A stretch of 64,000 nt of DNA, from assembly GCF_004342445.1 (NCBI RefSeq), contig NZ_SLWW01000001.1:310001-374000 (forward strand), given 5' to 3'. This document shows positions 26,701-64,000 of the stretch, in pieces. Position numbers and translations under genes: made by a program. Numbering within the stretch: the first letter of the stretch is position 1; each line of letters opens with the position of its first letter. The notes below the pieces were generated by a model. It was not told where the DNA came from. It made no database searches and saw only the letters and a program-made list of their open reading frames with translations. This DNA is from Rhodovulum euryhalinum. GTDB lineage: Bacteria; Pseudomonadota; Alphaproteobacteria; Rhodobacterales; Rhodobacteraceae.

Positions 26701-27707
26701 ACGCTGCCGCCCGCGTTGGTGACGAATTCGGGATAGCCGCCCTGCACGCTGTCGCCGTCGCGCACGCGGTCGGTTTCGTCGAAGAGGCGCGTGTTGGACC
26801 CGCCCGCGACGATGATGTCGACATTCGCCAGACGCCCGGCCAGTTCCATCTCGATGCCGATCTGCTGCATGTGGGCCAGCAGGATCACCTTATTCATGGC
26901 CGGATTGGCGGCGAGCAGCGCATCGACCTCGGCCTGGATGATCGCGGCCAGCGCGTCGAGCTCGGCAGGAGTGGGGTTCGTGCCCGCCCAGCCCGGCGAG
27001 ATGGTCACGCCGCCGGGGCTGGAGATCGAGGCCAGCGTCGGCGTGGTCGCGCCGACGACGCCGATCAGCTCGCCATTCACGTCGATCACGGTGGACGAGG
27101 TCACCGAATTGCCCTGCGGCGCCTGCCCGCCCGCGATTTCCAGCGGCGCGAGGTTGGCGTCGGTCGAGAAATCGAGGTTGGTCGACAGATACGGCATGTC
27201 GGTGCCGCCGAAATCGAGTCCTTCAAGCGCGGTGCCCACCAGCGCCGAGAAATCGCCCGTCGCGGTGCCCGCGATCAGCGCGGCCAGCGACGTGGTGTTG
27301 AAGTCGAATTCGTGGTTGCCGAACGCGATCGCCTGGAAGCCAAGCTCGTTCTGGATCTGGATGTCCGCGATCCCGGCCGTCCCGAAGGCCCCGGCCGAGG
27401 CGTCGTAGAACAGGCCCGGGATGAACGCGTCGCCCGAGGACAGGACGATGGTGTTGTCCTCGACACCGTCCGACCCCAGGTCCTGCGCCTTCAGCGCGTT
27501 CAGCACCGCCGAGAAGCGCGGCGCATCGAGAATCGCGGCCGCCCCGGCTTCCTGGTCGGCGGCATGCAGAAGTTCCAACGTGAAGACCGCGGATTCGGCC
27601 ATCGCCGCGCCCTCGGCGAACGCACCAAGTTCGGGGGCGATATCGATGCCCGCACCGGCCTCGGCGGTCTGGTTGCGCTCGGGATGGGACTCTTCGTCGT
27701 AGGTCAT
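20799..27707 (-). CDS. Giant secreted 5'-nucleotidase / ExeM-NucH-type extracellular nuclease
   Basis: A 2302-aa acidic secreted protein. Residues ~30-650: metallophosphatase/5'-nucleotidase (HAADQEAG, VLSSGDAFIPG, IAFGNHEFD, and GGSNTRL where UshA has GHxH). Residues ~750-1220: choice-of-anchor I beta-propeller-like repeats (GKAYVTNGALGRIDVWDI). Residues ~1430-1530: lamin-tail-like (ITELWFG, DWIEVTNTG). Residues ~1620-1700: the OB-type domain of ExeM nucleases. Residues ~1870-2170: endonuclease/exonuclease/phosphatase catalytic domain (VASFNVLNYF, IVGLIEIEND, VNHLKSKG, TIGDFNSY, SSDHDPV). The last ~120 residues (LTGTEEADIFEIG, LGGADIFLFD) look like a type I secretion end; there is no Sec signal. 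ATG at 27707 has AGGAA upstream. It would degrade extracellular DNA and release phosphate from nucleotides. Confidence 0.85.
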   Translation of the reverse strand: MTYDEESHPERNQTAEAGAGIDIAPELGAFAEGAAMAESAVFTLELLHAADQEAGAAAILDAPRFSAVLNALKAQDLGSDGVEDNTIVLSSGDAFIPGLFYDASAGAFGTAGIADIQIQNELGFQAIAFGNHEFDFNTTSLAALIAGTATGDFSALVGTALEGLDFGGTDMPYLSTNLDFSTDANLAPLEIAGGQAPQGNSVTSSTVIDVNGELIGVVGATTPTLASISSPGGVTISPGWAGTNPTPAELDALAAIIQAEVDALLAANPAMNKVILLAHMQQIGIEMELAGRLANVDIIVAGGSNTRLFDETDRVRDGDSVQGGYPEFVTNAGGSVTAVVNTDGSYKYVGRLVLDFDADGNVIAESYDSSISGAYATDAQGVADLGAAGLVDPEIQAIADAIEAQILATEGNVFGASDVFLNGNRSGADTATNPDGVRTQETNLGNLTADANLAAAQEIDSTVVVSIKNGGGIRASIGQTIVPPGGSAPVRLPNEAVVDSDGNLIKPAGGISQNDIQTSLAFNNGLVLLTLTKAELVGLLEHGVSAIPAAAGAFPQIGGLRLSYDPDLPAGDRVLEAGIFTEAGDLIAELVRSGEIAGDPAEEFRVVTLDFLSAPRFDAAGAFIGAGDGYPFPNTNTDPTVGEVGDADVIARVNKVFLAEDGVQTGEATFANDGTEQDALAEYLKDNYEDTPFAEGETGRDGDTRIQNLNFRDDAVFEGFDLDAPEATGELGDIGIAAVFDSGAGEGGSEVVATEDGKAYVTNGALGRIDVWDIASGSLSASIDLTYLPGFAGVQSVAVKNGLIAAAVSSTDIVSGADVLGQSGYVALIDGATGLVIDRVVTGNLPDMVTFSPDGTKILVANEGEFNAESDITVDPVGSVSIIDVSNLVNPTVQTLTFGSLAAVEGVRLAPGASYLEGLEPEYIAVTDDGTTAYVSLQEANAFAKIDLATGAIDLIPLGTVDHSQEGSGLDANDDGLISIRTYDNLVGLRMPDAIDAFEVDGATYIITANEGDGRGDGDEGGDEARVGDILDGDIPGLAIDASVDTTGLERLVISTIDGDTDGDGDIDVLHAFGSRSFTIFDADGNVVFDSGSEFERILSEVAPERFNNDDGEPIATEDDNRSDAKGPEPEAVVTGEVNGALYAFIGLERDSGIVIYNISEPTAAYFVDYIPGFGNDLGAGIDDFIGPETIAFIPAAESLSGVAQIVAAYEISGDTVVYDLGDFIAPPTPILIAEFQPNPDGTDPVTQTVELSGAAGAMFDLWLVSVENDGVDGRVDRAENVTGSFDANGIATVEVADLENPSFTFILTDAFTGAAAVTDIDTDNDGVVDDLSAFGTILDAIGSADSAADFADSYADDAALGGVAFAYTGTEPELMFRDASRGDWYAVNAPGDAVVYAADGSTVDPAEFDTDPTVGTDSFGAVNPSRAGGTADLQITELWFGQDGTDLTADWIEVTNTGTAAWTAATDGALFYDDESLDPTVADQVQGVDSLAPGESAIIVIGQAADAAAFAAVWGDDADLSDVQIGWADGAGLGAGGDAAGLFLDAEGDGLALTDTPIATASYPDGGAAASGRSYDVPSASFSSLAGFEDMSATTELGGTDGTEPAIASPGYIPTERTAPDYTLISTIQGAGFSSGLVGQTVTVQAVVTVVSDALNGFFLQEEDGDADGDAATSEGVFVYTGSDPSVQVGDLVTLEAIVDEYFQNTQLKTIQSLVVEAQGVELPTSVTVSLPLPGGTDPATFYESVEGMRVTVVAADGEVLSVTDTFTRFGEVGVTSGAPLVQPTQAFESFSAEAEALAEANTRDFLLFENAEDDSLSSAPRVGDGIVGNRIDGVMHFTFDEYKVETQGAVAFDTSVNPFPRTDAPEDIEGRLKVASFNVLNYFTTLTSEDSAARGAATADQLADQTSKIVAAIKAIDADIVGLIEIENDLSAPDEAVAALVAALNAEMGAGTYDYIATGKIGTDAIKQAIIFKPATVAPKGDFAVLDTVEFTDPLASGGPLSRPAVAQSFTEVATGEVFTVSVNHLKSKGSASGVAGDDSDVEGSAALTRVEAVKELAEWLATDPTGSGDADHLTIGDFNSYAMERAIRAIEDAGFTNLADADATSYQFDGRLGTLDYAFANESLAGQVAGATIWNVNSLEAYAQQYSDARFDALGDPASPFGSSDHDPVIVGLNLETEVERNLIVSEGDRDRLTGTEEADIFEIGSFRSEMATGLGGADIFLFDAAAFEDGTRGLVQIRDYMAGEDMVDLGGGSFDAALVSETANAVYLTMDGDGDRIVIRGIDSLDDITFVDHLDMIA

Positions 27708-28046
27708 GTCATACGTTCCTGTTCGGCGAAAATGGCAAGGAAAACAGTCCTGATGATCGTTGCAGGGGAAATGGGCGCTCGCCGCATGCGCGCGCGGCAT
27801 CGTCACGGGCGGCCCCACCGGCATGACGATAGCCATGGAAAAGAAATGCGCCGGATTCCGCGCTCAAGCTTCGACCCCCAACCTGCACCTCGGAATCAGG
27901 GTTAACGGCCTTGTGTTACAGACCGACGACAACGGACCGACCTTGGCGGCAGGTTTGCGGGGCGAGACCTGGAGAAGGGACAGGGTGCCGTGATGGGCGG
28001 GGCGTCGAACGCAGGCCGGATCTCGCCGCCGGGCCGCAAGACGTCG
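27708..28046. other. Promoter region of the giant nuclease gene
   Basis: No gene is supportable here. A weak two-repeat element resembling a Pho box lies at 27915-27932 on the minus strand (TTGTCGT and CTGTAAC at 11-bp spacing, five of seven matches each to CTGTCAT). It is about 210 nt upstream of the start codon, so its role is uncertain. Confidence 0.35.
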
Positions 28047-39282: not shown

Positions 39283-41757
39283 ATGCAGACCGCCTCGCCC
39301 CGCCCCTCGACGCTTGAAGCCGCGGACATGATTTCCGAAACGCTCGGGGGCATGGGCGCCCTGCCGCAGGACTGGCTGGCCGGCGCCGGCGCCCATGCCG
39401 GAGAGTTGCTTGACGGCGCGCAGCTGATGCGCACCGTCGCCGCCCGGCACGGCAACGTGATCTTCGACGGCCACACCGCCCGGGCGCGCGCCGCGTTCGA
39501 GGCGCTGTCGGCGGCCGGCACCGCCAGTGCCCGGAACGAGACGCCCCTGCCATCGGCCCTTGCCGACTGGATGCGCGATGCGGGCGAGCGCTGGGTGCTG
39601 ACGCTGGATCTGTTGCGCGAGCGGGGCGACATCTTCCGCGCGCACGAGGCCGCGGGCTGCCCGCCGGTGCTGATCTACGACTACGAGATGATCGTCGACG
39701 GCGCCGACCTGGACCACCCCTGCAACTACCAGCTCTTGCGGATCGTCCCGCCCGAGGGTGTCGAGGTGCACGACTTCAAGCGGCCCTACATCATCATCGA
39801 CCCGCGTGCGGGGCACGGCGGCGGCATCGGCGGGTTCAAGCCCGACAGCCAGGTCGGCGTGGCGCTGGCCGATGGCCACCCGGTCTATTTCGTGGCCTTC
39901 GGGCGCACACCCGTTCCGGGCCAGACGCTGGCCGACGTCACCCGCGCCGAGGCCGAGTTCGTGCGCGAGGTCACCCGCCGCCATCCCGACGCCTCCAAGC
40001 CCGTCGTCATCGGCAATTGCCAGGGCGGCTGGGCCACACTGCTGCTGGCGGCGTCCAACCCCGACCTCACGGGCCCGATCGTACTGAACGGCGCGCCGGT
40101 GGCCACCTGGTCGGGCGAGGTGGGCAAGCACCCGATGCGCTACAACGCCGGGATCCTCGGCGGCACCTGGCAGCCGATGCTGTGGTCGGACCTGGGCGGC
40201 GGCGTCTTCGACGGCGCGAACCTGGTGATGAACTTCGAGATGCTGAACCCCGGCCGCACCTGGTTCCGCAAGTATGCCGACATGATGGCCGATATCGACG
40301 ATCCCAAGGCCCGCCAGCGGTTCCTGGAATTCGAACGCTGGTGGGGCGGCTTCTTCATGCTGAACGAGGCCGAGATCCGCTGGATCGTCGAACAGCTTTT
40401 CGTCGGCAACCGCCTGACCAGGAACACCGCGATGCTGGAACCCGGCCGGCTGGTCGACATCAAGCAGATCCGTGCGCCGATCATCGTCTTCGCCAGCCAC
40501 GGCGACAACATCACGCCGCCCCAGCAGGCGCTGAACTGGATCCTCGACGCCTATGCCGGGGTCGACGAGATCCGCATCCGCGGCCAGCGCATCGTCTACA
40601 TGGTGCACGAAGAGGTCGGCCACCTGGGCATCTTCGTCTCCTCGACCATCGCGAAAAAGGAACATACCGAGGTCTCGTCCACGCTGAAGACCATCGAGGC
40701 GCTGGCGCCCGGGCTCTACGAGATGAGGATCGACGCGGTGAAGGGCGCGGGCACGGCCAAGAGCTTTCACGTCAGCTTTGCCGAGCGCAGCTTTGCCGAT
40801 CTCGAGGCACTGGGCGGCACCCGCGACGAAGAGGTGGCCTTCGCCGCGGTGGCGCGGGCCAGCCAGATGCAGTCCGAGGCCTATGACACGCTGGTCCGTC
40901 CGGTGCTGCGCGCAACCGTCAGCCCCCGCGCGGCCGAGGCGGCACGCGCGCTGCACCCGCTGCGCACCCAGCGGCTGGCGCTGTCCTCGCTGAACCCCGC
41001 GATGGCGGCCCTTGCCACCGCCGCCGAACGGGTCCGCGAGGCCCGCGAGCCTGCCGATCCGGCCAACCCCTTCCTGGCACTGGAGCGGGTGGCCATCGAC
41101 GTCACCGAGCAATGGATCGACCTCGCCCGCGACCTGCGCGACGCGGCCTACGAGATGAGCTTTCACATGATGTGGAACAACCCCTGGGCGCGCGCCTTCG
41201 GCCAGTCCCAGGCGCCGCGCCGCACCCGCAAGACCGAGGACGAACTGCGCGCGCTGCCCATCGTGCAGGCCGCGCTGGCGCACGTGGCCCAGGGCGGCTT
41301 CGTCGAGGCGGTGATCCGGATGCTGGTGCTGCTGGCCGAGAGCCGCCAATCGGTCCGGCGCGACCGGCTTGAACGCTCGGCCCGGGTGCTGAACCGCGAT
41401 GCGCCGTTCCGCGACCTGCCGATGGAGGTGCGCGCCCACATCATCCACGAACAGACCCTGATCGCCACCTACGACCCCGAAGGCGCCATCGCCACGCTGC
41501 CGCGCCTGTTGCCCGACCCCGAGGCGCGCGATCTGGCCGCCCGCGTCGTCCAGTATGTCCCCGGCCCTATCGACGAGATGGCGCCGCACACGCTGGAGAT
41601 GCTGAACCGGTTCCGCAGCGTGCTGGGGCTTGGCCCGGTGACCGCCGACGTGCTGGACGACCCGCTGGCCGAGGCGCCCGAGGGGACGGGGGATGCGGCC
41701 CCGGCCGCCCGTCCGCGCCGCCGCGCCGCCCCGCGCACCGGGGAGGCCGCCGAATGA
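39283..41757 (+). CDS. DUF3141 protein, PHA-synthase-like alpha/beta hydrolase
   Basis: An 824-aa protein. The central alpha/beta-hydrolase domain (~110-460) has a lipase box with cysteine nucleophile, GNCQGG (Cys246), as in polyhydroxyalkanoate synthases, and plausible triad partners Asp408 (ASHGDN) and His447 (EEVGHLG). The C-terminal ~350 residues are helical with an Ala/Arg-rich tail and match nothing I recognise. DUF3141 proteins are usually annotated as poly(3-hydroxyalkanoate) synthetase-like but their reaction is not settled. The stop overlaps the next gene by 4 nt, tying it to the CoA-transferase. Confidence 0.83.
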
Positions 41758-42407
41758 AGGCGGCGCTGAAGCCCGAGGACGCGGCCGCGATGATCCCCGA
41801 AGGCGCGGTGCTCTTGATCGGCGGGTTCATGGGCGTGGGCTCGCCGCACCGGCTGATCGACGCGATTGTGGCCCGCGGCGTCAGCGGGCTGACCATCGTC
41901 GGCAACGACACCTGCCGGCCGGGCCAGGGCGTGGGCAAGCTGATCGACGCGGGCCTCGTGACCCGCGCCATCGTCAGCCATATCGGCCTGAACCCCGAGG
42001 CCCAGCGCCGGATGATCGCGGGCGAAATGGAGATCGAACTGGTCCCCCAGGGCACGCTGGTCGAACGCATCCGCGCGGGCGGCGTGGGCCTCGGCGGCGT
42101 GCTGACCCCGACCGGCGTCGGCACGCTGGTCGAGGAGGGCAAGCAGGTGATCGAGATCGATGGCCAGAAGTTCCTGCTGGAAAAGCCGATCCGCGGCGAT
42201 TTCGCGCTGCTGGACGCGCGCCAGGCCGATTACGTGGGCAACCTCGAATACACGCTGACCGCGCACAACTTCAATCCGATCATGGCGCTGGCCGCCGACA
42301 CGGTGATCGCCGAGCCGCACCACATCCTGCCCGTGGGCATGATCCCGCCCGACGCGGTCAAGACGCCGGGCGTGCTGGTCGACTACCTTCTGGAAAGGGC
42401 GCAGTGA
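41754..42407 (+). CDS. atoD: 3-oxoacid CoA-transferase subunit A (AtoD/ScoA-like)
   Basis: A 217-aa alpha subunit of a class I CoA-transferase: [20 protein letters not shown] (~16-35), the CoA-binding TIVGNDT (~47) and the SHIGLNP segment (~74). It overlaps the DUF3141 gene and the beta subunit (41754/41757 and 42407). The heterodimer would activate acetoacetate or another short 3-oxoacid or carboxylate by CoA exchange. Confidence 0.9.
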
Positions 42408-53928: not shown

Positions 53929-54071
53929 CTATCCGATGGGAAATCCCCCTCCCACCGCAGAGAACAAGGCGCTCTTGCCGCAGCCCGATGACCCCGCCAG
54001 CGCGGTGACCGATCCGGCCAGCACGTCATGGGCGACCCCATCCCCCGAACCCGTGGCAGGGGCCCGCTCAT
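53929..54071 (-). pseudogene. Remnant of an ABC transporter ATPase gene (frameshifted and truncated)
   Basis: An ATG at 54071 overlaps the permease stop as ATGA, the normal junction for the next ABC gene, and begins MSGPLPRVRG, like an ATPase N-terminus. After ~15 codons the homologous sequence continues in another frame: GDGVAHDVLAGSVTALAG, then the complete Walker A GSSGCGKS (53971-53994) and ALF. This second frame ends at TAG 53931-53929, so only about 45 of ~250 residues remain. Signature, Walker B and H-loop are absent, and past this point the sequence runs into the downstream end of the convergent GpdQ-like gene. This is direct evidence for a frameshift plus large deletion. Confidence 0.75.
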
Positions 54072-54844
54072 GGTGCCGCGCCCCGGCCGTCGTCCCGCCA
54101 GGGAAACGCGCGCCGCTGCAGCGGCTGGATCAGCGCCAGATCGACCACGATCAGCACACCCACCACCACCATGACCCAGGCCATCATCGCCGCCGTATCG
54201 ACATGGGCGCGCGCGGTCGCCAGCCCGTCGCCGATGCCGCCCGCCCCGGCCAGCAGTTCCGCCATCACCGCCACCTTCCACGACATCGCCAGCGTCGCGG
54301 CAAGCGCGGGGAAGACATGGACCAGCATGTTCGGCACGTGCATGTGGACGATCCGCACGGCAAGCGGCACGCGGAACACCCGCGCCATACGGATCAGCCC
54401 GCCATCAAGGCTTTGCACGCCCGAGACGGCGGCGGCGAAAACCAGCGGGCCGGTGGCCACGGCAACTGTGAAGACAACCGCCCAATACCCGCCGAACCAC
54501 AGGATCGCCAGCACCACCCAGGCGATCGCGGGGATGCCCAGCAACACGACCGCGACCGGCTGGAGCGCGCGCTGCGCGTCCTGGCGCAGCCCTGCAAGGG
54601 TGCCCGCGGCGATCCCCGCCAGCGCGCCGGCGACCCAGCCAAGCCCGGCATGGCCGGCCGTCCGGGCAAGTTCCGGGCCGACAGCCCCCTCGCGAAGCAT
54701 CCGCCAGAGCGCCACCGCGGTATCGTCGAGCCCGGGCAGGACCAGCGGACCGTAGGCGCGGTGTCCCGCTTCCCACAGAAGCAGCAGCAGGGCGATGCCC
54801 GACAGGCTCCACAGCCGCGATACCCGGGGGGATGTGCGCGCCAC
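54068..54844 (-). CDS. ABC transporter permease, NitT/TauT (SsuC/TauC) type
   Basis: A 258-aa permease with about six TM segments, an N-terminal TMD (LWSLSGIALLLLLWEAGHRA) and the TauC-family core AELLAGAGGIGDGLATARAH (~210). It follows the binding-protein gene by 9 nt and precedes the ATPase remnant with a 4-nt overlap. Without a local ATPase, it would need one encoded elsewhere. Substrates of the class include sulfonates, nitrate, pyrimidine precursors and riboflavin; the ligand is unknown here. Confidence 0.85.
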   Translation of the reverse strand: MARTSPRVSRLWSLSGIALLLLLWEAGHRAYGPLVLPGLDDTAVALWRMLREGAVGPELARTAGHAGLGWVAGALAGIAAGTLAGLRQDAQRALQPVAVVLLGIPAIAWVVLAILWFGGYWAVVFTVAVATGPLVFAAAVSGVQSLDGGLIRMARVFRVPLAVRIVHMHVPNMLVHVFPALAATLAMSWKVAVMAELLAGAGGIGDGLATARAHVDTAAMMAWVMVVVGVLIVVDLALIQPLQRRAFPWRDDGRGAAP

Positions 54845-54853
54845 GGGTTCGCC

Positions 54854-55843
54854 TCAGCCCCAGTAGAACCCGGCATCGGGCAGCCGGTTGCCGACGATCC
54901 CCGGGGCCAGCGCCATCAGGTGGCCGAAATAGGTCTCGATATCGGCCCGCGCCGCACGCGCCGTGGTCACGTCGAGCCGCACGAAGGGCAGCGAGCGGGC
55001 AACCACCTCGGCCGAAAGCCCCAGCAGCGGACCCGTCGCCGCCCCGGCCGCGCCGGGATGGGCACCCGCCCAGGCGCCCGCCTCGACACAGGCCGCATGG
55101 GCGGCGGCGACAATGTCGGGCGCGGCGTCCAGAAACGCTTCGCTGACTGCCAGCCCCACCTGCGGAATACGCGGTCCGCGGCCGGTATGGGCACCGTAAA
55201 GCGTGGTCACGTCAAGCGCCCGGAACAGCGGAACCCCGGCCTGCGCCGCGCGCATCAGCGCCGCGGTGGCGGCCGGTTCGTGCATCACCGCGACATCACC
55301 CCGGCCGGACAGGAACACCGGCACCGCCTCGCCGGGCGATCCGACATAGTCGAGCGTCACGTCGCGGTCGGGGTCCAGCCCGGCCCAGCCCAGCACCATG
55401 CGGAACAGCAGGTCCGGCGCCTCGTTCTTGTTCGACAGAAGGACGCGCCGGCCCGCCAGATCCTCGACCGCCGTGATGCCCTCGTCCCGCGCCATCACGT
55501 AGAGCACGCCCCAGGAGACGACGTTGACCATCCGCGTACCGCCGCCGCGGTTGAAGAAATTGGCGGCGGCATAGGTCGAGGACGCGAACAGACGGAACGC
55601 GCCCGAGGCGATCCCGGCGCGCAACTGATCGGTGCTGTTCCAGACATCGAACCGCGCGCCCGGGGCGGCGGCCTGCATCCGGTCCGAAGCGGCGGCGCGG
55701 GCGAACACCGCCGAGGGCGTCGCGGGCATCCCCCACAGGGTCAGCGGCTCTGCCCCGGCCTTGGCCAGCCCCGCGGCCGACAGCGCAGCAAGACCGCACA
55801 GAACGCCGCGCCGGTCAAGCGGTGCTGTCGGAACACGGGTCAT
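54854..55843 (-). CDS. ABC transporter substrate-binding protein, NitT/TauT (NMT1-like)
   Basis: A 329-aa exported protein; the N-terminus DRRGVLCGLAALSAAGLAKA carries a twin-arginine-like motif and a cleavage site near residue 31. The body is of the NMT1/SsuA-like fold (TLWGMPATPSAVFARAA, GRRVLLSNKNEAPDLLFRMV, DVTLDYVGSPGEAVPVFLSG). It starts 38 nt after the hydrogenase gene stop on the same strand, so it is probably in the hydrogenase operon. Ligand unknown. Confidence 0.85.
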   Translation of the reverse strand: MTRVPTAPLDRRGVLCGLAALSAAGLAKAGAEPLTLWGMPATPSAVFARAAASDRMQAAAPGARFDVWNSTDQLRAGIASGAFRLFASSTYAAANFFNRGGGTRMVNVVSWGVLYVMARDEGITAVEDLAGRRVLLSNKNEAPDLLFRMVLGWAGLDPDRDVTLDYVGSPGEAVPVFLSGRGDVAVMHEPAATAALMRAAQAGVPLFRALDVTTLYGAHTGRGPRIPQVGLAVSEAFLDAAPDIVAAAHAACVEAGAWAGAHPGAAGAATGPLLGLSAEVVARSLPFVRLDVTTARAARADIETYFGHLMALAPGIVGNRLPDAGFYWG

Positions 55844-55881: not shown

Positions 55882-57729
55882 CTAGTACAGCATCATGCTT
55901 GCGGTGATGTCGTCCCAGATCTCCTTGACGGTGTGGGTCAGTGCGCGCTGCCGGTCCTCGTAGCTGGTGTGTAGAAGGTGGTGCGCGGTCGCGGAATTCG
56001 GTTCGCCGAGAAAGTCGCGATAGAGCGCCTGAACCTGCGGGTTGTTGTGGGACTGGCGCACCTTCGCGGCGCGGTCGACGTTGTAGATCGTCTCGCGCCG
56101 TTTCAGCGCCAACGGCAGGTAGGCCTGCTTGGACCGGAGCGAGCCACCCCCGTCGACGCAGCCGCCGGGGCAGGCCATCACCTCGATGAAGTCGTAGTCG
56201 GCCTCGCCCGCCAGCACCTTTTCGACCAGCGCGCGGGTGCCGCCCAGCCCGTGGACCATCGCGACACTGACCTCGCCCACCGCACCGCCCAGATCGACCC
56301 GGGCCTCGCGCACACCCTCGAATCCGCGCAACTGGGTCAGCTCGATGCGGTCAAGTTCGCGGCCGTTGACAATGGCATAGATCGTGCGCAGCGCAGCCTC
56401 CATCACGCCGCCGGTGGTGCCGAAGATCGCGCCCGCGCCGGAATACTCGGCCATCCACGGGCTGTCGAAGGCCGAGGGCGCCAGGTGCTTGAGGTCGATC
56501 CCCTCGCGCCGCAGAAGGCGGGCGAATTCGCGGGTGGTCAGCACCACGTCGGTGTCGGGCAAGCCGTCACGGGTCAGTTGCGGGCGCGCCGCCTCGTCCT
56601 TCTTGGCGACGCAGGGCATGATCGAGATCACGCGGATGCGGGCGGGGTCCACGCCCAGCTTTTCGGGCAGGTAAGTCTTGGCCACCGTCGACAGCACCTG
56701 CTGCGGCGACCGGGTGGAGGACAGGAACGGCAGTATCTCGGGATAGTGGATTTCGGCGAAGTTGATCCAGGCCGGGCAGCACGAGGTAAAGGTGGGCCGC
56801 CTGCGCTCCTTCAGCCGCGACAGCAGTTCGGTGCCTTCCTCCATGATCACCACGTCGGCAGCGAAATTGGTGTCGAGCACCACGTCGATGCCGATCTTGC
56901 GGCAGGCGGCAACGATCTGGCCCTCGACATTGGTGCCCGCGGGCATGCCGAATTCCTCGCCGAAGGCGACACGGACGGCGGGGGCGAACTGCACCACCGT
57001 CACGATGTCCGGGTCGCAGATGTAGTCCAGCGCAAGGTCGGTCTCGTCGCGTTCGCCCAGCGCGCCGGTGGGGCAGACCAGCACGCATTGCCCGCAGGAC
57101 ACGCAGGCGGACGAGGGGTAATCGTCGGCATCGCGCAGCGCCACCACCCGGTCAAGCCCGGTGCCCTCCATCGCCAGCGCGTCGACCTGCTGGTGGTGGC
57201 GGCAGATCGCGACGCAGCGCTGGCAGCGCACGCAGCGGCGCATGTCGCGCACCATCGCGGGCGAGGTCAGGTCGATGGGCCGCGCTTCGGTCCGGGCGCG
57301 GTCGAAGAAGCGGTTTTCCGTCAGCCCGACGAACTGCGCCAGATCCTGCAGTTCGCAATCGCCGTGGCGGATGCAGGTGGCGCAGTCCTGAAGGTGGTCG
57401 GCCATCAGCAGTTCGACCTGCAACCGCTGCATCTCGCGCGCCTTCCGGGACCGGGTCCGCACCTCCATCCCCTCGCGGACGGGGGTGTTGCAGGCGGTGA
57501 CGATCTGCGCCTCGTCCCGGCCCGCCTGCACGATCTCGACAAGGCAGACGCGGCAGGTGCCGGGCGTGTGGTCGATATCGTCCAGTTCGCAGAGCGTCGG
57601 AACGTAGATGTCGTGCCGCCGCGCGCAGGCCAGGATCGTCTCGTTCGGGAAACCGCGGCAGTCCGTGCCGTTCAGGATCAGGGCGATCGTGGCCTCGGCG
57701 GGATCGCGGGCGGGGTCGGGGGTGCACAT
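55882..57729 (-). CDS. hydA: [FeFe]-hydrogenase, modular catalytic subunit (HydA)
   Basis: A 615-aa cytoplasmic iron-sulfur enzyme. Cluster motifs in order: [2Fe-2S] Cys47, Cys59, Cys62 and Cys80; His-ligated [4Fe-4S] in HLQDCATCIRHGDC (112-125); two [4Fe-4S] sites in CVRCQRCVAIC (166-176) and CVSCGQCVLVCP (209-220). The H-cluster domain has L1 TSCCPAW (315-321), L2 MPCVAKKDE (371-379) and L3 MACPGGCVDGGG (518-529), giving all four H-cluster cysteines and the proton-relay Cys. The C-terminal small-subunit segment (YRDFLGEP, HHLLHTSY) is also intact. It should interconvert protons and H2. No HydE, HydF or HydG maturase gene is in the window. ATG at 57729 with GAGGG upstream, 13 nt after the flavoprotein gene. 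The family is rare in Alphaproteobacteria. Confidence 0.9.
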   Translation of the reverse strand: MCTPDPARDPAEATIALILNGTDCRGFPNETILACARRHDIYVPTLCELDDIDHTPGTCRVCLVEIVQAGRDEAQIVTACNTPVREGMEVRTRSRKAREMQRLQVELLMADHLQDCATCIRHGDCELQDLAQFVGLTENRFFDRARTEARPIDLTSPAMVRDMRRCVRCQRCVAICRHHQQVDALAMEGTGLDRVVALRDADDYPSSACVSCGQCVLVCPTGALGERDETDLALDYICDPDIVTVVQFAPAVRVAFGEEFGMPAGTNVEGQIVAACRKIGIDVVLDTNFAADVVIMEEGTELLSRLKERRRPTFTSCCPAWINFAEIHYPEILPFLSSTRSPQQVLSTVAKTYLPEKLGVDPARIRVISIMPCVAKKDEAARPQLTRDGLPDTDVVLTTREFARLLRREGIDLKHLAPSAFDSPWMAEYSGAGAIFGTTGGVMEAALRTIYAIVNGRELDRIELTQLRGFEGVREARVDLGGAVGEVSVAMVHGLGGTRALVEKVLAGEADYDFIEVMACPGGCVDGGGSLRSKQAYLPLALKRRETIYNVDRAAKVRQSHNNPQVQALYRDFLGEPNSATAHHLLHTSYEDRQRALTHTVKEIWDDITASMMLY

Positions 57730-57742
57730 GGTCGGGCCCTCG

Positions 57743-59728
57743 CTAGGGGATCGAATGGCGGGTGACGACGGAATAGACGCGGTAGCAGCGCATGCAGCGT
57801 TGCGCCTCGGCATAGGCCGCGCGAGCGCTGATGGTCTGCTCCACCTCCTCGAACATGTGCTTGCGCAACTCGGGGTCGAGTTCGGGGTTGTGCACGCGAT
57901 ACGCATTGCGCACCGGGGTTTCCACCACATCGTTGGCGAGAAACCGGTTGTCGGCGATCAGCTTGCGCATCCGCGCCCGCTTGAAGAACCGGACCGAGCC
58001 ACGCTGGATCCAGTCGTCGATGTTGCGCGCGGCGTTCTGCCCGGCGGCCATGGCATAGATCAGCGTCGAAGGCCCGGTGGTGCAGTCGCCCCCGGCAAAG
58101 ACCCCCGGCCGCGAGGTGGCCAGCGTGTCGTCGGCCGCCACGCAGTTCCAGCGGTCGAGCGCGACGCCGTCGCCCTGGACCAGCGCGCCATCCTCGACCT
58201 GCTGTCCGATCGCGGCGATCACATGATCGCAGGGGAGGACATGTTCGCTGCCCGCAACCGGGCGCACCTTGCGCCGGCCACTCTCGTCGGGGTCGGTCTG
58301 GTCCATGCGCACCAGTTCGACGCCGGTGACCCGCCCGTTTTCGGTCAGGATGCGGGTCGGGTTGGTGAGGGTAAGGAACCGGATGCCCTCGGCTTCGGCG
58401 GCCTCGATCTCTTCGGCATCGGCGGGCATGTCCTCGCGGGTGCGGCGATAGACGACATGCACCTGATCCGCACCCAGCCGCAACGCCGAGCGGACGCAAT
58501 CCATCGCGACATTGCCGCCGCCGACCACCACCACCTCGCCCGACAGCGCGAGCGGCGCGATGCCGTCGACATGGTCATGCACCTTCAGCAGGAAGTCGAT
58601 GCCGCTGAAATAGCCCCGCAGCCCGGCATCCTCGCCCGCGATGCCCAGCCGCGACCCCGCCTGGCAGCCAAGCCCGAGAAAGACCGCCTTGTAGCCCCGG
58701 GCGAACAGGTCGTCGATGCTGAAATCCCGCCCCAGTTGCTGGCCGAACAGGAACCGCCCGCCCAGATCGGCGATGATCTCGGTCTCCATCGCCAGCGTGT
58801 CCTTGGGCAGGCGGTAGCTGGGGATGCCGATCTGCGCCATGCCGCCCGCCTGGTGCGATTTCTCGAAGACATCGACATGATAGCCACCCAGCAGCAGGTG
58901 ATAGGCGCAGGCGATGCCCGCCGGGCCCGCGCCCACCACCGCCACCTTCATGCCGTCGGCCAGCGGCTTGCGGATCATGTCGCGGGTGAATTTCAGCGCG
59001 TGCGGGCCGCTTTGCTGGTCGGCGACATAGCGTTTCAGCGTCTTGATGCCGACCGCCTCGTCCACGAACTTGCGCCGGCAGGCCTGTTCGCAATAGCGCA
59101 CGCAGACCCGACCGCAGGTGGCGGCCATCGGGTATTGCTGGAGCAGCACGCCCAGGCTGTTCTCGGGCTTGCCGTCGCGGATGTAATCGATGTAGCGCGG
59201 CACGTTCACCTTGGACGGGCATGCCTCGATGCAGGGCGCGGTGACATAGGCCATGCCGTGCTGCGCCGGAACGGGTCGTCCGGGCGCGGTCTCGGCCTCG
59301 ATGCGGCCGCGGAAATGGTGCAGCGCGTCCAGCAGCGCGACCGCGCAGGTCTGCCCGAGGCCGCAAAGCGATGTCTGGCGCATCTGCTCGCCCAGCATCT
59401 CGATCCGGTCGAGGTCGAGCGAGGGGGCCAGCCCCCGCCGCATGCCGTCCAGCGCATCGCGCACCAGAACCGTGCCCATCCGGCAGGGGGTGCAGACGCC
59501 GCAGGACTGCTCGGCCGCCTTTGCCATGTAGTGGTAGAGCGAGTCCACCAAGCTGACCGTCTCGTCGAACACGAAAAAGCCGCGGTCGCCAAAGAAGGCG
59601 CGGATCGGGTTGCCCGCGTCGAACTCGTCGAAGTTCTTCAGGTCGTAATCGGGCGCCCCGGTGTGGTCGGGTGGCGTCTGCCGATCATAGACGATCCCGT
59701 CCCAGACCCCGTATGCCACATGTGTCAT
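57743..59728 (-). CDS. NuoF [4Fe-4S] domain / GltD-like FAD-NAD(P) oxidoreductase fusion
   Basis: A 661-aa electron-transfer flavoprotein. Residues ~1-150 correspond to the C-terminal part of NuoF/HydB with the N3-type cluster SCGVCTPCR (~71-79) and CGLG (~119), but without the N-terminal FMN-binding Rossmann part. Residues ~165-250 carry the GltD cysteine motifs (CIEACP, CGRVCVRYCEQAC). FAD site VAVVGAGPAGIACAYHLL (~260), NAD(P) site VVVVGGGNVAMDCVRSAL (~385) with VVYRRTREDMP, and the C-terminal FAD loop VFAGGDCTTGPSTLIYAMA follow. It probably passes electrons between NAD(P)H and the adjacent hydrogenase. ATG at 59728 preferred (GAGGCCAGG upstream). Confidence 0.85.
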   Translation of the reverse strand: MTHVAYGVWDGIVYDRQTPPDHTGAPDYDLKNFDEFDAGNPIRAFFGDRGFFVFDETVSLVDSLYHYMAKAAEQSCGVCTPCRMGTVLVRDALDGMRRGLAPSLDLDRIEMLGEQMRQTSLCGLGQTCAVALLDALHHFRGRIEAETAPGRPVPAQHGMAYVTAPCIEACPSKVNVPRYIDYIRDGKPENSLGVLLQQYPMAATCGRVCVRYCEQACRRKFVDEAVGIKTLKRYVADQQSGPHALKFTRDMIRKPLADGMKVAVVGAGPAGIACAYHLLLGGYHVDVFEKSHQAGGMAQIGIPSYRLPKDTLAMETEIIADLGGRFLFGQQLGRDFSIDDLFARGYKAVFLGLGCQAGSRLGIAGEDAGLRGYFSGIDFLLKVHDHVDGIAPLALSGEVVVVGGGNVAMDCVRSALRLGADQVHVVYRRTREDMPADAEEIEAAEAEGIRFLTLTNPTRILTENGRVTGVELVRMDQTDPDESGRRKVRPVAGSEHVLPCDHVIAAIGQQVEDGALVQGDGVALDRWNCVAADDTLATSRPGVFAGGDCTTGPSTLIYAMAAGQNAARNIDDWIQRGSVRFFKRARMRKLIADNRFLANDVVETPVRNAYRVHNPELDPELRKHMFEEVEQTISARAAYAEAQRCMRCYRVYSVVTRHSIP

Positions 59729-59813: not shown

Positions 59814-59827
59814 ATGATCCAGCGCAA
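59814..59827 (-). promoter_or_regulatory. Weak FNR-like site upstream of the hydrogenase operon
   Basis: On the minus strand TTGCG-CTGG-ATCAT, 7 of 10 matches to TTGAT-N4-ATCAA, 86 nt upstream of the flavoprotein start in a 152-nt gap. An oxygen-responsive FNR/FnrL control would suit a hydrogenase, but the match is weak. Confidence 0.2.
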
Positions 59828-59880: not shown

Positions 59881-61146
59881 TCAGCGCCCGCGCAGATGCG
59901 CGAGTACCTCTTCGGCTACGTCCTGGCGGACCTGCCTGCGGTCGCGCAACTGGCGGGCCACGCGCTCGATCTCGTCACCCACCGCCCCGGCGGCGATGGC
60001 GACGTTCTGCGCGTGCAGCGCCATGTGGCCGCTCTGGATACCCTCGGTCGCCAGCGCCCGAAGCGCGCCGAAATTCTGCGCCAGCCCGACCGCGGCGACG
60101 ATCCGCGCCAGCGCCCCGGCCGAGTCCACCCCCAGCAGCGCCAGAGACGCCTGCGCGACCGGGTGGACCCGCGTCGCGCCCCCGACAAGGCCCAGCGACA
60201 GCGGCAGTTCGATGCTGCCCGCCAGGTCGCCCGCCGCCGTCTTTTCCCAGCGCGACAGGGCGGTATAGCGGCCCGAGCGCGCGGCATAGGCATGCGCGCC
60301 GGCCTCGATCGCGCGGGTGTCGTTGCCGGTGGCCAGTACCACGGCCGAGACGCCGTTCATGATGCCCTTGTTGTGGGTGGTCGCGCGGTAGGGGTCGACG
60401 GCGGCGAACTCGGCGCCGAGGCACATCGCCTCGACCACGTCCGGCCCGCCGATCTCGGCCGCGGGCCAGGTGGCACGTGCGCGTGCCACGCGGCGGTCGG
60501 CCAGGTTCGACAGGATCCGGAACAGCGCCCGGCCGCCGGTCCACTCGGCGATCCTGGGGCCCGCGGCTTCGGCCATGGAATTGACCGTGTTCGCGCCCAT
60601 CGCGTCGCGCGTGTCGACCACCAGGTGCACCACCAGCATCGGCCCCGACGGCGCGTCCAGCACCCGCGCTTCCACTTCGCAGAGGCCGCCGCCCAGCTTG
60701 TGCAGCATCGGGTCGATCTCGGCGCAAAGCGCGGCGAGGTCGTCGAACCGCTCCAGCACCATCAGCCGCGCGGCCTGCGGGTCGGCCAGCCCGACGATCT
60801 GGATCTGCGCAATCGTCAGCGAACCGGAATAGGAGGTGAAGAAGCCCCCCGTGCCCCGGCAGCGTTTCGCGGCGTTGCCCACGGCGGCGATGACCGAGCT
60901 TTCCTCGGTCGCCATCGGCACCAGCACGTCGCGCCCGTCGACGCGCATGTTGGTGGCGACCCCCAGCGGCACCGGCATCACGCCGACCGCGTTCTCGATC
61001 AGCCGTTCGACCAGCGCGCCCTCGACGGGGCCGGTCTCGGCCAGCTTGTCCGACAGCGCAAGGCCCGTTGCCTCGTCCAGCAGGCGCAGGCGGTCCGCGC
61101 GGGTCAGGGCGCCGAAACCGGGCAGGCGGGAGGTCGGGTCGGTCAT
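59881..61146 (-). CDS. mvaA: Class II (degradative-type) HMG-CoA reductase
   Basis: A 421-aa enzyme with the class II signature ENAVGVMPVPLGVATN (51-66). Catalytic residues align with Pseudomonas mevalonii MvaA at a constant offset of 7: Lys260 (THNKGIMNG), Asp276 (TGNDTR), His374 (SGHMALHAQN) and a Glu at 81/82 (ATEESS). It oxidises mevalonate plus CoA to HMG-CoA, or the reverse. Alphaproteobacteria make isoprenoids by the MEP route as a rule, and the gene lies behind a TRAP transporter, so catabolism of mevalonate is the best reading. No HMG-CoA lyase gene is visible in the window. Confidence 0.92.
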   Translation of the reverse strand: MTDPTSRLPGFGALTRADRLRLLDEATGLALSDKLAETGPVEGALVERLIENAVGVMPVPLGVATNMRVDGRDVLVPMATEESSVIAAVGNAAKRCRGTGGFFTSYSGSLTIAQIQIVGLADPQAARLMVLERFDDLAALCAEIDPMLHKLGGGLCEVEARVLDAPSGPMLVVHLVVDTRDAMGANTVNSMAEAAGPRIAEWTGGRALFRILSNLADRRVARARATWPAAEIGGPDVVEAMCLGAEFAAVDPYRATTHNKGIMNGVSAVVLATGNDTRAIEAGAHAYAARSGRYTALSRWEKTAAGDLAGSIELPLSLGLVGGATRVHPVAQASLALLGVDSAGALARIVAAVGLAQNFGALRALATEGIQSGHMALHAQNVAIAAGAVGDEIERVARQLRDRRQVRQDVAEEVLAHLRGR

Positions 61147-61173
61147 GGTGCAGTCTCCGGTTCGGCGGGGATC

Positions 61174-61929
61174 TCAGCCCCGGATCAGATAGCCGCCATC
61201 CACCGGGATCGCCGCCCCGGTGACGAAACGCGCGGCCGGCGTAGCCAGGAACAGCGCGGTGCCCGCCACGTCCTCGGGCCGGCCCCAGTCGCCGGCCGGG
61301 GTACGGGCGCGCACGCGCGCGTCGAGATCGGGCATGTCGCGGCGGGCCTGCCGGGTCAGGCGGGTGTCGATCCAGCCGGGCAGGATGCAGTTGGCCTTGA
61401 TGCCCTCGCCCGCCCAGGCGACCGCCAGGCTGCGGGTCAGTTGCACCACGCCGCCCTTGGCCGCGGCGTAGGGCGCGGTCATGTCGTTGGCCAGCACCGA
61501 CATCATCGAGCCCAGCGTCACGATCCGCCCGTCGCCGCCGCGGGCCAGGTGGGGGTAACAGGCCCGCGCCATCAGGAAGGTGCCCTTCAGGCTGGCATCC
61601 ACCACTGCGTCCCAGTCGGCCAGCGTCACCGTCTCGGGCCGCATCCGGCGGTTGAGCCCGGCGGCGCAAACCAGCACGTCGATGCCGCCCATCGCCTCGG
61701 CCGCCCCTTCGGTCACGCGGGCGCAATCAGCCTCGGATGCCACGTCGCCCTGCATGAATCGCACCACGCCATGCTCCGCCAGTGCGGCCTCGGCGGTTTC
61801 GCCCGTCTCGGCCGACCGGCCGGTGACGACCGCCCGCGCGCCAGCCTTAAGGAACGCGCGCGCGATGGCCAGCCCGATGCCGCTGGTGCCGCCGGTGACG
61901 AGAACGCGCCGCCCCTGAAGATCGAACAT
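61174..61929 (-). CDS. Short-chain dehydrogenase/reductase
   Basis: A 251-aa classical SDR: cofactor motif TGGTSGIGLAIARAF (~13-27), NAAG-equivalent CAAGLNR (~88), catalytic Ser in LGSMMSV and YAAAKGG (~152), and C-terminal FVTGAAIPVDGGYLIRG. It lies 27 nt before the HMG-CoA reductase and 9 nt after the TRAP permease. In a mevalonate pathway it could oxidise a hydroxyacid intermediate such as 3-hydroxybutyrate, but substrate specificity cannot be read from the sequence. Confidence 0.87.
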   Translation of the reverse strand: MFDLQGRRVLVTGGTSGIGLAIARAFLKAGARAVVTGRSAETGETAEAALAEHGVVRFMQGDVASEADCARVTEGAAEAMGGIDVLVCAAGLNRRMRPETVTLADWDAVVDASLKGTFLMARACYPHLARGGDGRIVTLGSMMSVLANDMTAPYAAAKGGVVQLTRSLAVAWAGEGIKANCILPGWIDTRLTRQARRDMPDLDARVRARTPAGDWGRPEDVAGTALFLATPAARFVTGAAIPVDGGYLIRG

Positions 61930-61938
61930 CGTGCCCCC

Positions 61939-63282
61939 TCAGTTCACCGTGATGCCTGGCAGCCACAGCACGATCCCCGGAAACGCGATGCAAAGCGCGA
62001 GGCCCAGCAGTTGCAGCAGCACGAAGGGGATGATCCCGGCATAGATGTGCCGGATCGTGACACCCCGGGGCGCAATGCCCCGCAGGTAGAACAGCGCATA
62101 GCCGAAGGGTGGTGTCAGGAAACTGGTCTGCAGGTTCACCGCCACAAGGATCGCGAACCACAACAGCGTGATACCGGAATTCTCGAACCCGAAATCCAGC
62201 CCGGCGATGATCGGCGCGAAAAGCGGCAGCACCACATAGCTGATCTCGATCCATTCGAGGAAGAAGCCCAGCACGAAGATCAGCGCCATGATCAGGAACA
62301 GTGTCTGGTAGGGCCCCGAGGCCAGCGCCATTACCGCATCCTCGATCATGTAGTCGCCGCCCACCCGCTTGAAGATCGCGCTGAAGACGGTCGCGCCGAT
62401 CGCCACGCCCAGGATCATCGCCGTGGTCAGCGCCGTGTCGCGCACACACCCCACGAGGTTGGCCCAGGTCAGCTGCCCCGTCGCGGCGGCCAGCAGCGTG
62501 GCCCCCGCGGCGCCGATGCCCGCGGCCTCGGTCGGCGTCGCCACCCCCGCCACGATCGAGCCCAGCACGCCGAGGATCAGCAGCGCAGGCGCCACGAGTT
62601 GCTTCAGCAGAGAGGCCGCCATCGCCCAGCCCGCATCGTCGTCCGTCGTGTCACGCGGCGGGGCCAGCGCGGGGTTCCGCCAGGCGACGATCAGGATGTA
62701 CAGCGCATAAAGCCCGCCCAGCATCAGCCCAGGGATCGCGGCGCCCATGAACAGACCGCCGATCGACACCTGCAGGATGTCGCCCATCAGCACCAGCATG
62801 ATCGAGGGCGGGATCAGGATGCCCAGCGTTCCCGCCGAACAGATCGTTCCAGCTGCCAGCGATTTCGAATAATTCTGCTTCATCATCACCGGCAGCGCCA
62901 TCAGCCCCAGCATCACCACCGAGGCCCCCACGATCCCGGTGCTGGCGGCCATCACCACGCCCACGATGGTCACCGACAGCGCCAGCCCGCCGGGGCGGCG
63001 GGCGAACATCCGTTCCAGCGACAGCAGCAGGTTGCGGGCGATGTCGGACTTTTCCAGCATCAGCCCCATGAACACGAACAGCGGCACCGCCATCAGCAGC
63101 CAGTTGGTCAGCGTGCCGGTGAAGATCCGCGAGACGATCGTGTTCAGGAAGACCGGCGGGATGTCGGCGATGAAGGTGAACAGAACCCCGATACCCGCCA
63201 GCACGAAGGCCACCGGATAGCCCGAGAAGACGCCCGCCATCAGCGCGAGCACCATCATCAGGGGCATCAGGTAGTCACCCAT
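61939..63282 (-). CDS. dctM: TRAP transporter large permease (DctM type)
   Basis: A 447-aa, roughly 12-helix membrane protein. Family features: VPLFVFMGLMLEKSDIA (~65-80), the GTLGILIPPSIMLVLMGDIL segment (~145-170), and VATPTEAAGIGAAGATLL (~255). It imports a small acid with Na+ or H+ together with DctQ and the periplasmic DctP. ATG at 63282 overlaps dctQ by 8 nt. Confidence 0.92.
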   Translation of the reverse strand: MGDYLMPLMMVLALMAGVFSGYPVAFVLAGIGVLFTFIADIPPVFLNTIVSRIFTGTLTNWLLMAVPLFVFMGLMLEKSDIARNLLLSLERMFARRPGGLALSVTIVGVVMAASTGIVGASVVMLGLMALPVMMKQNYSKSLAAGTICSAGTLGILIPPSIMLVLMGDILQVSIGGLFMGAAIPGLMLGGLYALYILIVAWRNPALAPPRDTTDDDAGWAMAASLLKQLVAPALLILGVLGSIVAGVATPTEAAGIGAAGATLLAAATGQLTWANLVGCVRDTALTTAMILGVAIGATVFSAIFKRVGGDYMIEDAVMALASGPYQTLFLIMALIFVLGFFLEWIEISYVVLPLFAPIIAGLDFGFENSGITLLWFAILVAVNLQTSFLTPPFGYALFYLRGIAPRGVTIRHIYAGIIPFVLLQLLGLALCIAFPGIVLWLPGITVN

Positions 63283-63865
63283 TCCAGGTCTCCGGCACCG
63301 AATCCTCGGCGCCCAGCAGGCGGGCCGTCTCCAGCAGGACCCGGCCCAGCGCCGCGAGCGCAAGGAAAACGAAGCCGATCGGCATCAGCGCCTTGACCAG
63401 ATAGCGGTCGGCAAGTCCGCCATAGTCGGACTGTTCGCCCGTCTTCCACGCGAATTCCACGAAACCGAGGCTGAGCCAGCCGATCACCGCGCAGAAGGGC
63501 AAGAGGAACAGCAGGTCGCCCAAGAGGTTCACCCCCGCCTTTCCGCGCCGCCCGAAGGCGGAATACAGCAGGTCCACGCGGACATGGCGATCCTCGGCCA
63601 GCGCAAAGGCAAGGCCCGGCATCACCATCACCGCCATCAGGTGCCATTGAAGTTCCGCCAGCCCCGACATGGTAAGCGACCGGCCGAAAAGGGGCAGGTC
63701 GGCCTGCCATTCGGCCAGCGTACTCAGGCGGAACTGCGCGCCGATCACCGCCAGCAGAACCAGCGCCAGCAACGGCAGCAGCAGCCAGGCCGCCGCCCGG
63801 CCCGGCCACGCGCCGATCTGCATCAGCACGCGGCCGGTGCGCTCCATCCTCGACGGAAGCGACAT
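63275..63865 (-). CDS. dctQ: TRAP transporter small permease (DctQ type)
   Basis: A 196-aa protein with four hydrophobic segments and the DctQ pattern ALAEDRHVRVDLLY (~87-100). It starts at an ATG 7 nt after the stop of the binding-protein gene (63873) and overlaps dctM by 8 nt. It forms the membrane complex with DctM. Confidence 0.9.
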   Translation of the reverse strand: MSLPSRMERTGRVLMQIGAWPGRAAAWLLLPLLALVLLAVIGAQFRLSTLAEWQADLPLFGRSLTMSGLAELQWHLMAVMVMPGLAFALAEDRHVRVDLLYSAFGRRGKAGVNLLGDLLFLLPFCAVIGWLSLGFVEFAWKTGEQSDYGGLADRYLVKALMPIGFVFLALAALGRVLLETARLLGAEDSVPETWNG

Positions 63866-63872
63866 GCCCGGG

Positions 63873-64000
63873 TCACTCGGACGGGATGGTTTGCAGGCTG
63901 GTCCAGTCCTGCGCCTTGGAGAGGTAGTCCTGGATCGAGGCATAGGCCTCGGCGAAAAGCGGGTCCTTGGCGGCCTCTTCCTCCAGCACCTCCTTCGAGG
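63873..64000 (-). CDS. TRAP transporter solute-binding protein (DctP type), C-terminal end, partial
   Basis: The window holds the last 41 codons. The peptide (KDPLFAEAYASIQDYLSKAQ, then DWTSLQTIPSE) is the typical C-terminal tail of DctP-family binding proteins. The gene continues beyond the right edge. It heads the operon dctP, dctQ, dctM, SDR, HMG-CoA reductase. Confidence 0.75.
   Translation of the reverse strand, partial: SKEVLEEEAAKDPLFAEAYASIQDYLSKAQDWTSLQTIPSE

Follow-up and report, generated by a model that had tools for sequence, protein, structure and literature searches.

The stretch of the Rhodovulum euryhalinum genome analysed here (contig NZ_SLWW01000001.1, positions 310,001 to 374,000; 64,000 nucleotides, hereafter the window) encodes a modular group A [FeFe]-hydrogenase, HydA, directly beside GltDF, a GltD-type flavoprotein with an additional iron-sulfur domain. 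We use HydA* for this hydrogenase and its close relatives. The maturases HydE, HydF and HydG were not found over cut-off in any searchable genome of the clade to which the window protein belongs, and all of the active-site residues that we tabulated are invariant there. Sequence comparison suggests to us, with roughly even confidence, that HydA* and GltDF work together as an H-domain oxidoreductase of two subunits, linked to NAD(P)H. It would most likely still be a hydrogenase, with an active site that comes by another route or from another source.

HydA* and its flavoprotein partner

The two genes and the elements belonging to them are as follows.

55882..57729, minus strand: hydA (HydA*), modular group A [FeFe]-hydrogenase, 615 residues (profile, domain and PDB sequence matches)
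56146..57000, minus strand: H domain (PF02906), residues 244-528
55951..56109, minus strand: small-subunit segment Fe_hyd_SSU, residues 541-593 (domain match)
57743..59728, minus strand: gltDF, 661 residues, a GltD-type flavoprotein to which the C-terminal [4Fe-4S] domain of NuoF is joined; presumed electron partner
59814..59827, minus strand: weak FNR-like element TTGCGCTGGATCAT, 99 bases before gltDF

The hydA reading frame is open from 55882 to 57930 on the minus strand, and the ATG at 57729 is its most likely start. The protein scores 519 bits against the TIGR02512 'group A' profile (cut-off 405.95). Its domains (Fe_hyd_lg_C, Fe_hyd_SSU, Fer2_4, NADH-G_4Fe-4S_3 and a ferredoxin-type [4Fe-4S] domain) are laid out as a [2Fe-2S] cluster, a His/Cys [4Fe-4S] cluster, two further [4Fe-4S] clusters, the H domain and the small-subunit segment. 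By CpI numbering, counted from PDB alignments, the H-cluster cysteines C318, C373, C520 and C524 are equivalent to CpI C300, C355, C499 and C503, and residues C317, E298, S337, E301 and R305 to C299, E279, S319, E282 and R286 of the proton path described in PMC6226526. The motifs TSCCPAW, MPCVAKKDE, MACPGGC and GGGSL are all present. The four H-cluster cysteines (in L1-L3) and the proton relay cysteine are found in all 44 HydA* proteins aligned, as are all 20 cysteines in the motifs for the clusters and the active site. An earlier note, made from the DNA letters alone, had described a modular [FeFe]-hydrogenase with all motifs, and the group A profile, domains and motifs bear this out. Nar1/NARF-like proteins are without the catalytic set (proton relay cysteine, diiron pocket); this set is complete in HydA*, so the note was also right that HydA* is no relative of that type. 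The closest PDB sequence matches are the HydA1 subunits of 8a6t and 7q4v. An AlphaFold model of HydA* reached a moderate mean pLDDT (predicted local distance difference test) of 72.8 and was not used as evidence.

The same note had remarked that L3 ends in GGGSL where GGGQP is usual. The motif does read so, but it is no sign of decay: L3 is DGGG(S/T/N)L in 44/44 HydA* proteins, and because maturase-bearing relatives carry GGG(T/N/S)L, the sequence is inherited. A degenerate L3 as the cause of maturase loss was ruled out on the same ground, the motif co-occurring with HydEFG.

[FeFe]-hydrogenases are rare in Alphaproteobacteria, as had been stated. A PF02906 match was found in 1 of 394 genomes of a family sample, namely the R. 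euryhalinum genome itself, in single copy; in a class sample of 385 genomes a search with the window H domain at E 1e-20 gave 19 genomes with a relative, again counting its own. Contamination or an assembly artefact was ruled out, as the G+C content of the cassette (0.692) fits that of the window (0.684), the nearest HydA rows are from Rhodovulum, and none of the relatives compared has the flanking gene order in full. A plasmid-borne unit was likewise rejected: all 347 matching plasmid records fall below 60% identity, which leaves no close relative in PLSDB.

The gltDF gene ends 13 bases upstream of hydA on the same strand. Its product matches PF10589 (NuoF C-terminal) and, over their cut-offs, Fer4_20 and Pyr_redox_2, as in GltD; GltD-type NCBIfam profiles match at 300-428 bits, each below its own cut-off. 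In 42 of the 43 loci from relatives (three of them cut by contig edges) it is the gene immediately before hydA*, and in the single exception, L027, the contig begins too close to hydA*. The GltDF cysteines from C76 to C217, together with C645 and C648, are invariant in 40/40 GltDF rows. In the electron path that we propose, electrons would pass from NAD(P)H to FAD, then through the two [4Fe-4S] clusters of the GltD part and the [4Fe-4S] cluster of the NuoF domain to HydA*, where the [2Fe-2S] and [4Fe-4S] chain would lead to the H-cluster; flow could be in either direction. The HydA*-GltDF complex itself, this path, the use of NADP(H) and H2 as the substrate are what we infer. In another locus, a maturase-less draft (L021, 11307-13301), an open reading frame (ORF) of 664 residues that resembles the NuoF part of GltDF follows shortly after hydA*.

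The FNR-like element agrees with 7 of 10 consensus bases and is statistically weak (shuffle p ~0.1). A similar element is present in L010-L013 and L048, giving six Rhodovulum/Rhodobacter-type loci with the window counted.

Maturase genes in the HydA* clade

The R. euryhalinum assembly comprises 3.79 Mb in 44 contigs and is 99.96% complete. A profile search of it at E 1e-3 returned no match to HydE or HydG, and for HydF only ten generic GTPase-domain matches, the best at 69 bits against a cut-off of 325.6. The suggestion of the earlier note that the enzyme is matured from elsewhere in the genome found no support in this search, with none of HydE, HydF and HydG over cut-off. The note had also named two findings that together would refute it, the absence of hydEFG and the absence of H2 activity; the first of these is what we found.

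Relatives were collected by matching six exact peptide patterns against 84,980 species genomes, which under-samples relatives and gives a lower bound of at least 77 loci (best 80 matches). Among these best 80 matches, 43 loci (L010-L052) encode proteins 65-87% identical to the window HydA, and the next stands at 45%. By title the 43 are mostly Alphaproteobacteria, with a few drafts labelled otherwise. In a tree of 44 HydA* proteins the window protein falls into a clade of 19 with full support (ultrafast bootstrap/SH-aLRT 100/100; 94 in a quick tree with outgroups). The clade contains Rhodovulum, Rhodobacter sp., Tropicimonas, Aliiruegeria, Rhodopseudomonas, Cohaesibacter, Rhodobium and one draft.

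Maturases were searched for in the genomes of 41 of the 43 loci, all except L011 and L051. HydG was over cut-off in 21/41 and in all six control genomes. HydF, reported in relatives only at E 1e-30, was over cut-off in 22/41 (9/27 and 13/14, the miss among the 14 being a draft labelled Verrucomicrobium). HydE was over cut-off in 9 of 27 genomes tested, the same nine as for HydF, and one control genome was positive for both. All 17 searchable genomes of the clade, R. euryhalinum included, were without HydE, HydF or HydG over cut-off. PF02906 is single in 15 of the 16 other clade genomes; G402 adds a second match of canonical type. In the HydA* set, L033 (labelled Verrucomicrobium) and L035 (Eisenbacteria) are unsafe drafts without HydG over cut-off, and L036 is an unsafe draft with HydE and HydF but no HydG.

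The maturases could be present but missed, being too divergent for the models or encoded on DNA outside the assemblies. The searches behind their absence used profile models with cut-offs, and most of the genomes are drafts, in which genes can fall into gaps, as L036 illustrates; in one further genome, G442, HydG is split over two contigs with each piece under cut-off, and the strict reporting threshold for HydF in relatives points the same way. We nevertheless consider this explanation unlikely. It would require all three genes to have been overlooked in 17/17 genomes, one of them almost complete, while maturase-bearing relatives gave matches at E 3e-78 to 4e-195. HydG gave nothing at E 1e-3 in R. 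euryhalinum and 13 of the 16 other clade genomes, and the remaining three, all Cohaesibacter, reached only 24-28 bits for HydG (cut-off 312) and 41-44 bits for HydE (cut-off 254.6).

Ancestry and apparent transfer of the unit

Two species combine a close relative of the window pair with maturase genes. Roseiarcus fermentans (L171) and Oleispirillum naphthae (L172) encode HydA proteins 70% and 65% identical, and GltDF proteins 65% and 61% identical, to those of the window. Unlike the window, both have hydE, hydF and hydG close by on the same strand and no ATP-binding cassette (ABC) transporter unit of the kind described below. The order is hydG, hydF, hydE, gltDF, hydA* in Roseiarcus (G417 contig 66, 2.0-11.6 kb) and hydE, hydG, hydF, gltDF, hydA* in Oleispirillum (G430 contig 5, 111.0-120.1 kb). 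Since each genome has a single PF02906 match and the maturase genes lie close to gltDF-hydA*, HydA* is very likely a client of HydEFG there. We therefore rejected the idea that HydA* had never been such a client, which had been raised by the presence of a further PF02906 match (two of them weak or partial) in 18 of the 21 HydG-bearing genomes. Maturase loss in the window lineage is therefore the natural reading; the HydA* tree is unrooted, and the polarity of the loss rests on this operon argument.

The HydA* gene tree conflicts with taxonomy. Forcing the 12 Rhodobacterales rows together, with the window protein counted among them, a group that was named after a first tree had been inspected, lowered the log-likelihood by 90 and was rejected (approximately unbiased test, p-AU 1e-4). 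The unit thus appears to have moved between orders without maturases, and as all searchable clade members lack them, transfer after the loss is the simplest reading; several parallel losses in the clade are the alternative. In the scenario we favour, an ancestral HydA* would have been matured by HydEFG, one lineage would have lost HydEFG, and gltDF-hydA with the ABC transporter would then have spread between Rhodobacterales and Hyphomicrobiales, with its active-site residues retained.

Apparent selection on the active site

We tabulated 48 positions from the three motifs, the proton path and the residues around the diiron site, and 48/48 are invariant in the 19 clade rows. Comparison rows from outside the clade (21 from HydG-bearing genomes, and L036) vary at R286, Q325, Q326, A415 and S509 (CpI numbering). 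Over the 2.2 changes per site that the clade tree spans in all, substitutions have reached 290 of the 615 positions, 122 of them among the 285 of the H domain. None has occurred at the 16 diiron-site and proton-path positions that we picked, the four ligand cysteines excluded. The probability of this is ~4e-16 at the mean rate, the fairer figure as regards relaxation, and 9e-5 when 16 positions are drawn from the H domain, the fairer figure for chance. The median dN/dS is 0.17 (NG86, 152 usable pairs), by a method that is rough on GC-rich synonymous sites, and no stop codon interrupts the aligned HydA stretches.

Because the listed positions are invariant while 290/615 vary, the active-site cavity seems to be under selection without HydEFG. 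In CpI, changing C299 to A or S, or E279 to A or Q, leaves less than 1% activity according to PMC6226526, so the retention of both residues points to H2/H+ chemistry. The earlier note had allowed that the enzyme might not be functional; the sequences do not support this, since the listed positions are invariant and the gene is under purifying selection although 17/17 searchable clade genomes are maturase-less.

One form of that suggestion is a non-functional relic of a recent loss, an apo-protein that drifts. Earlier authors, as cited in PMC4967309, did regard alphaproteobacterial [FeFe]-hydrogenases such as that of R. rubrum, in genomes without maturases, as probably inactive or in a different role, and the ATPase gene of the window's ABC unit is already a remnant. 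Purifying selection, however, argues against inactivity, the chosen active-site positions are unchanged over 2.2 changes per site, and the unit has apparently been transferred between orders without maturases. The pairing of gltDF with hydA in 42/43 loci and the uninterrupted HydA frames also fit a relic poorly. We judge it the least probable of the explanations considered.

A more serious competitor is repurposing, in which the H domain would carry no more than its [4Fe-4S] subcluster, or have its empty [2Fe] cavity filled by some other ligand, and NAD(P)H-linked electron transfer by HydA*-GltDF would go to a substrate other than protons. The missing maturases in all searchable clade genomes would be expected of such a protein. 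Fourteen positions set the clade apart from the comparison rows, including two cysteines, C24 (19/19 against 0/25 of the 44 HydA* rows) and C238 (18/19 against 0/25). Only one of the 14, S530 (CpI 509), is among the 48 active-site positions, however, and the path C299-E279-S319-E282 and the diiron surroundings are unchanged. We know of no need for a proton path or diiron-site residues in a protein with a [4Fe-4S] cluster only. Repurposing is a possible explanation, to which we lend tentative credence.

Several points weigh against a working hydrogenase. HydE, HydF and HydG provide the only way known of making the [2Fe] subsite, and HydA produced in their absence is inactive. We recognised no substitute for them: gltDF and the ABC transporter, whose ATPase gene is broken in the window, are the only neighbours found throughout the clade, and over the stretches compared a replacement maturase near hydA* is unlikely. 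The choice of the 48 and the 16 positions was our own, and folding or another ligand may be what keeps the active-site residues conserved. In the working two-subunit enzyme that we favour, the diiron site would be made by a HydEFG-independent route or come from such a source. The broader proposition is that bacteria have a way to a catalytic H-cluster that does not depend on HydEFG, and that gltDF-hydA spreads between orders without maturases and works; we advance it on these sequence data as a conjecture, more doubtful than not.

The linked ABC transporter and other neighbours

Downstream of hydA lies an ABC transporter unit.

54854..55843, minus strand: ABC substrate-binding protein, SsuA/NMT1-like, 38 bases after hydA, with a leader resembling a twin-arginine (Tat) signal by eye
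54068..54844, minus strand: ABC permease, same unit as the binding protein (profile and domain matches)
53929..54067, minus strand: ABC ATPase remnant, cut off directly behind Walker A; the other two frames of the unit, for permease and binding protein, are open

At the 18 other clade loci the ATPase frame is open, with Walker A and signature motifs (the Walker B pattern was found in 10/18). All three genes stand beside hydA*-gltDF in 18/18 of these loci, and also in nine loci of Pleomorphomonas type, from HydG-bearing genomes. Where hydEFG genes lie close by, the full set is always missing; one such locus, L036, has a single ATPase-like match. Over the stretches compared, gltDF, hydA and the ABC genes are the only ORF families that most clade loci have in common; neighbour families common to only a few loci were left unannotated.

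Profile and fold searches for the substrate of the transporter yield only the broad SsuA/PqqT/Thi5 class. The model of the binding protein (pLDDT 90) resembles 3hn0, PqqT, SsuA and Thi5, and an organic anion is plausible as its ligand since the last three are the closest hits with named ligands. The association of the ABC genes with hydA*, and their absence as a full set beside hydEFG, also favour repurposing, in which the substrate of the altered enzyme would perhaps be brought in by this transporter.

Alternatively, the cofactor may be scavenged, with a diiron precursor from maturase-bearing neighbours imported through the linked transporter. The ABC unit occupies the place that hydEFG genes hold in other loci, the fold class of the binding protein makes an organic anion plausible, and synthetic diiron complexes can activate apo-HydA. 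Pleomorphomonas, on the other hand, has the ABC unit together with its own HydEFG, the ATPase is broken in the window, and we know of no diiron importer. Scavenging therefore seems to us very improbable.

Elsewhere in the window, 59881-63943 and 41754-42407 possibly serve mevalonate use. A degradative-type HMG-CoA (3-hydroxy-3-methylglutaryl coenzyme A) reductase (TIGR00532, 405 bits) and short-chain dehydrogenase/reductase (SDR) genes lie upstream of gltDF; these regions also hold ORFs that resemble TRAP transporter subunits by eye, and a CoA-transferase is further off. Positions 20799-27836 encode a protein of 2345 residues with choice-of-anchor I and 5'-nucleotidase C-terminal domains.

Comparison with known systems

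HydDB group A2 is named 'glutamate synthase-linked (putative)' and listed with its role undetermined (PMC5037454). By HydDB's written rule, by which (and not by HydDB's classifier) we made the comparison, the window resembles A2 in having a group A HydA beside a GltD-type protein, with a proposed link from H2 to NAD. The rule specifies a downstream GltD without a NuoF domain, whereas the window partner is upstream and has PF10589, and the maturases are absent. HydA* shares its domain order with the NADH-dependent group A6 (NF040763) and with the HydA of 8a6t/7q4v, which are its best profile and PDB sequence matches; NF040763 matches 23/23 rows of one of our alignments at E 1e-3. The window HydA*, however, scores 718 bits, below the cut-off of 765. 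Unlike in A6 and 8a6t/7q4v, no full NuoF or NuoE gene adjoins hydA in the window, L3 is GGG(S/T/N)L, and GltD replaces the N-terminal part of NuoF. The electron-bifurcating A3 enzymes (HydABC) differ in having full NuoF (HydB) and NuoE (HydC), where the window has the NuoF C-terminal domain only.

HydA without reported HydEFG has been described for R. rubrum (PMC4967309) and for some eukaryotes, maturase homologs being reported in some, but not all, eukaryotes with the enzyme (PMC3785491). The case presented here differs from that of R. rubrum, compared by its description in PMC4967309, in comprising a whole clade, a partner gene, a tree conflict and selection. PMC4967309 reports maturases in Pleomorphomonas oryzae together with two hydrogenases of type M3, and we suspect that the HydA* of this species may be one of the two; a search of the paper's main text for Rhodovulum, Tropicimonas, palustris and GltD gave nothing. 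No paper on this HydA* clade was found in the titles and abstract starts of open-licence literature, and since the search covered such papers only, this is weak evidence of novelty.

Maturase loss is not unique to the window clade, a possibility that further maturase-less cases ruled out. The HydA* tree has another maturase-less row apart from the clade, that of Rhodoplanes serenus (L037). In the class sample, R. euryhalinum is the sole member of its HydA type, and the H domains of the 18 other positive genomes are 40-54% identical to that of the window. Class-sample counts cover HydG and HydF only: HydG is over cut-off in 9/18 (G442, with its split gene, is a tenth) and HydF in 12/18. Both are under cut-off in six (G477, G528, G529, G604, G621 and G639), G477 having one HydF match of 106 bits. 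The H domains of these six are 44-49% identical to that of the window; five of the genomes are 96-100% complete, and four of these measure 1.1-1.5 Mb. Loci of five of the six are L205-L209. A HydA type of ~690-700 residues with MAC(S/V)GGCLGGGGEPKS was noticed at L169 1499-3604 (G402, an uncultured Tropicimonas draft) and L205 5382-7454 (G621), both genomes without HydG or HydF over cut-off.

Implications

HydEFG is taken as required for an active [FeFe]-hydrogenase, and yet a scattered clade without all three proteins keeps the listed active-site residues. The presence of hydA alone is no predictor of H2 metabolism in genome surveys. The clade makes alternative ways of building or using the H-cluster testable in culturable type strains of Rhodovulum, Rhodopseudomonas, Cohaesibacter, Tropicimonas and Rhodobium. 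Either outcome would be informative: a new assembly route for a cofactor wanted in biotechnology would come to light, or the hydrogenase fold would prove to have a second use, one for which the proton channel is needed. If a HydEFG-independent route does exist, it would also bear on the maturase-less HydA of R. rubrum and some eukaryotes.

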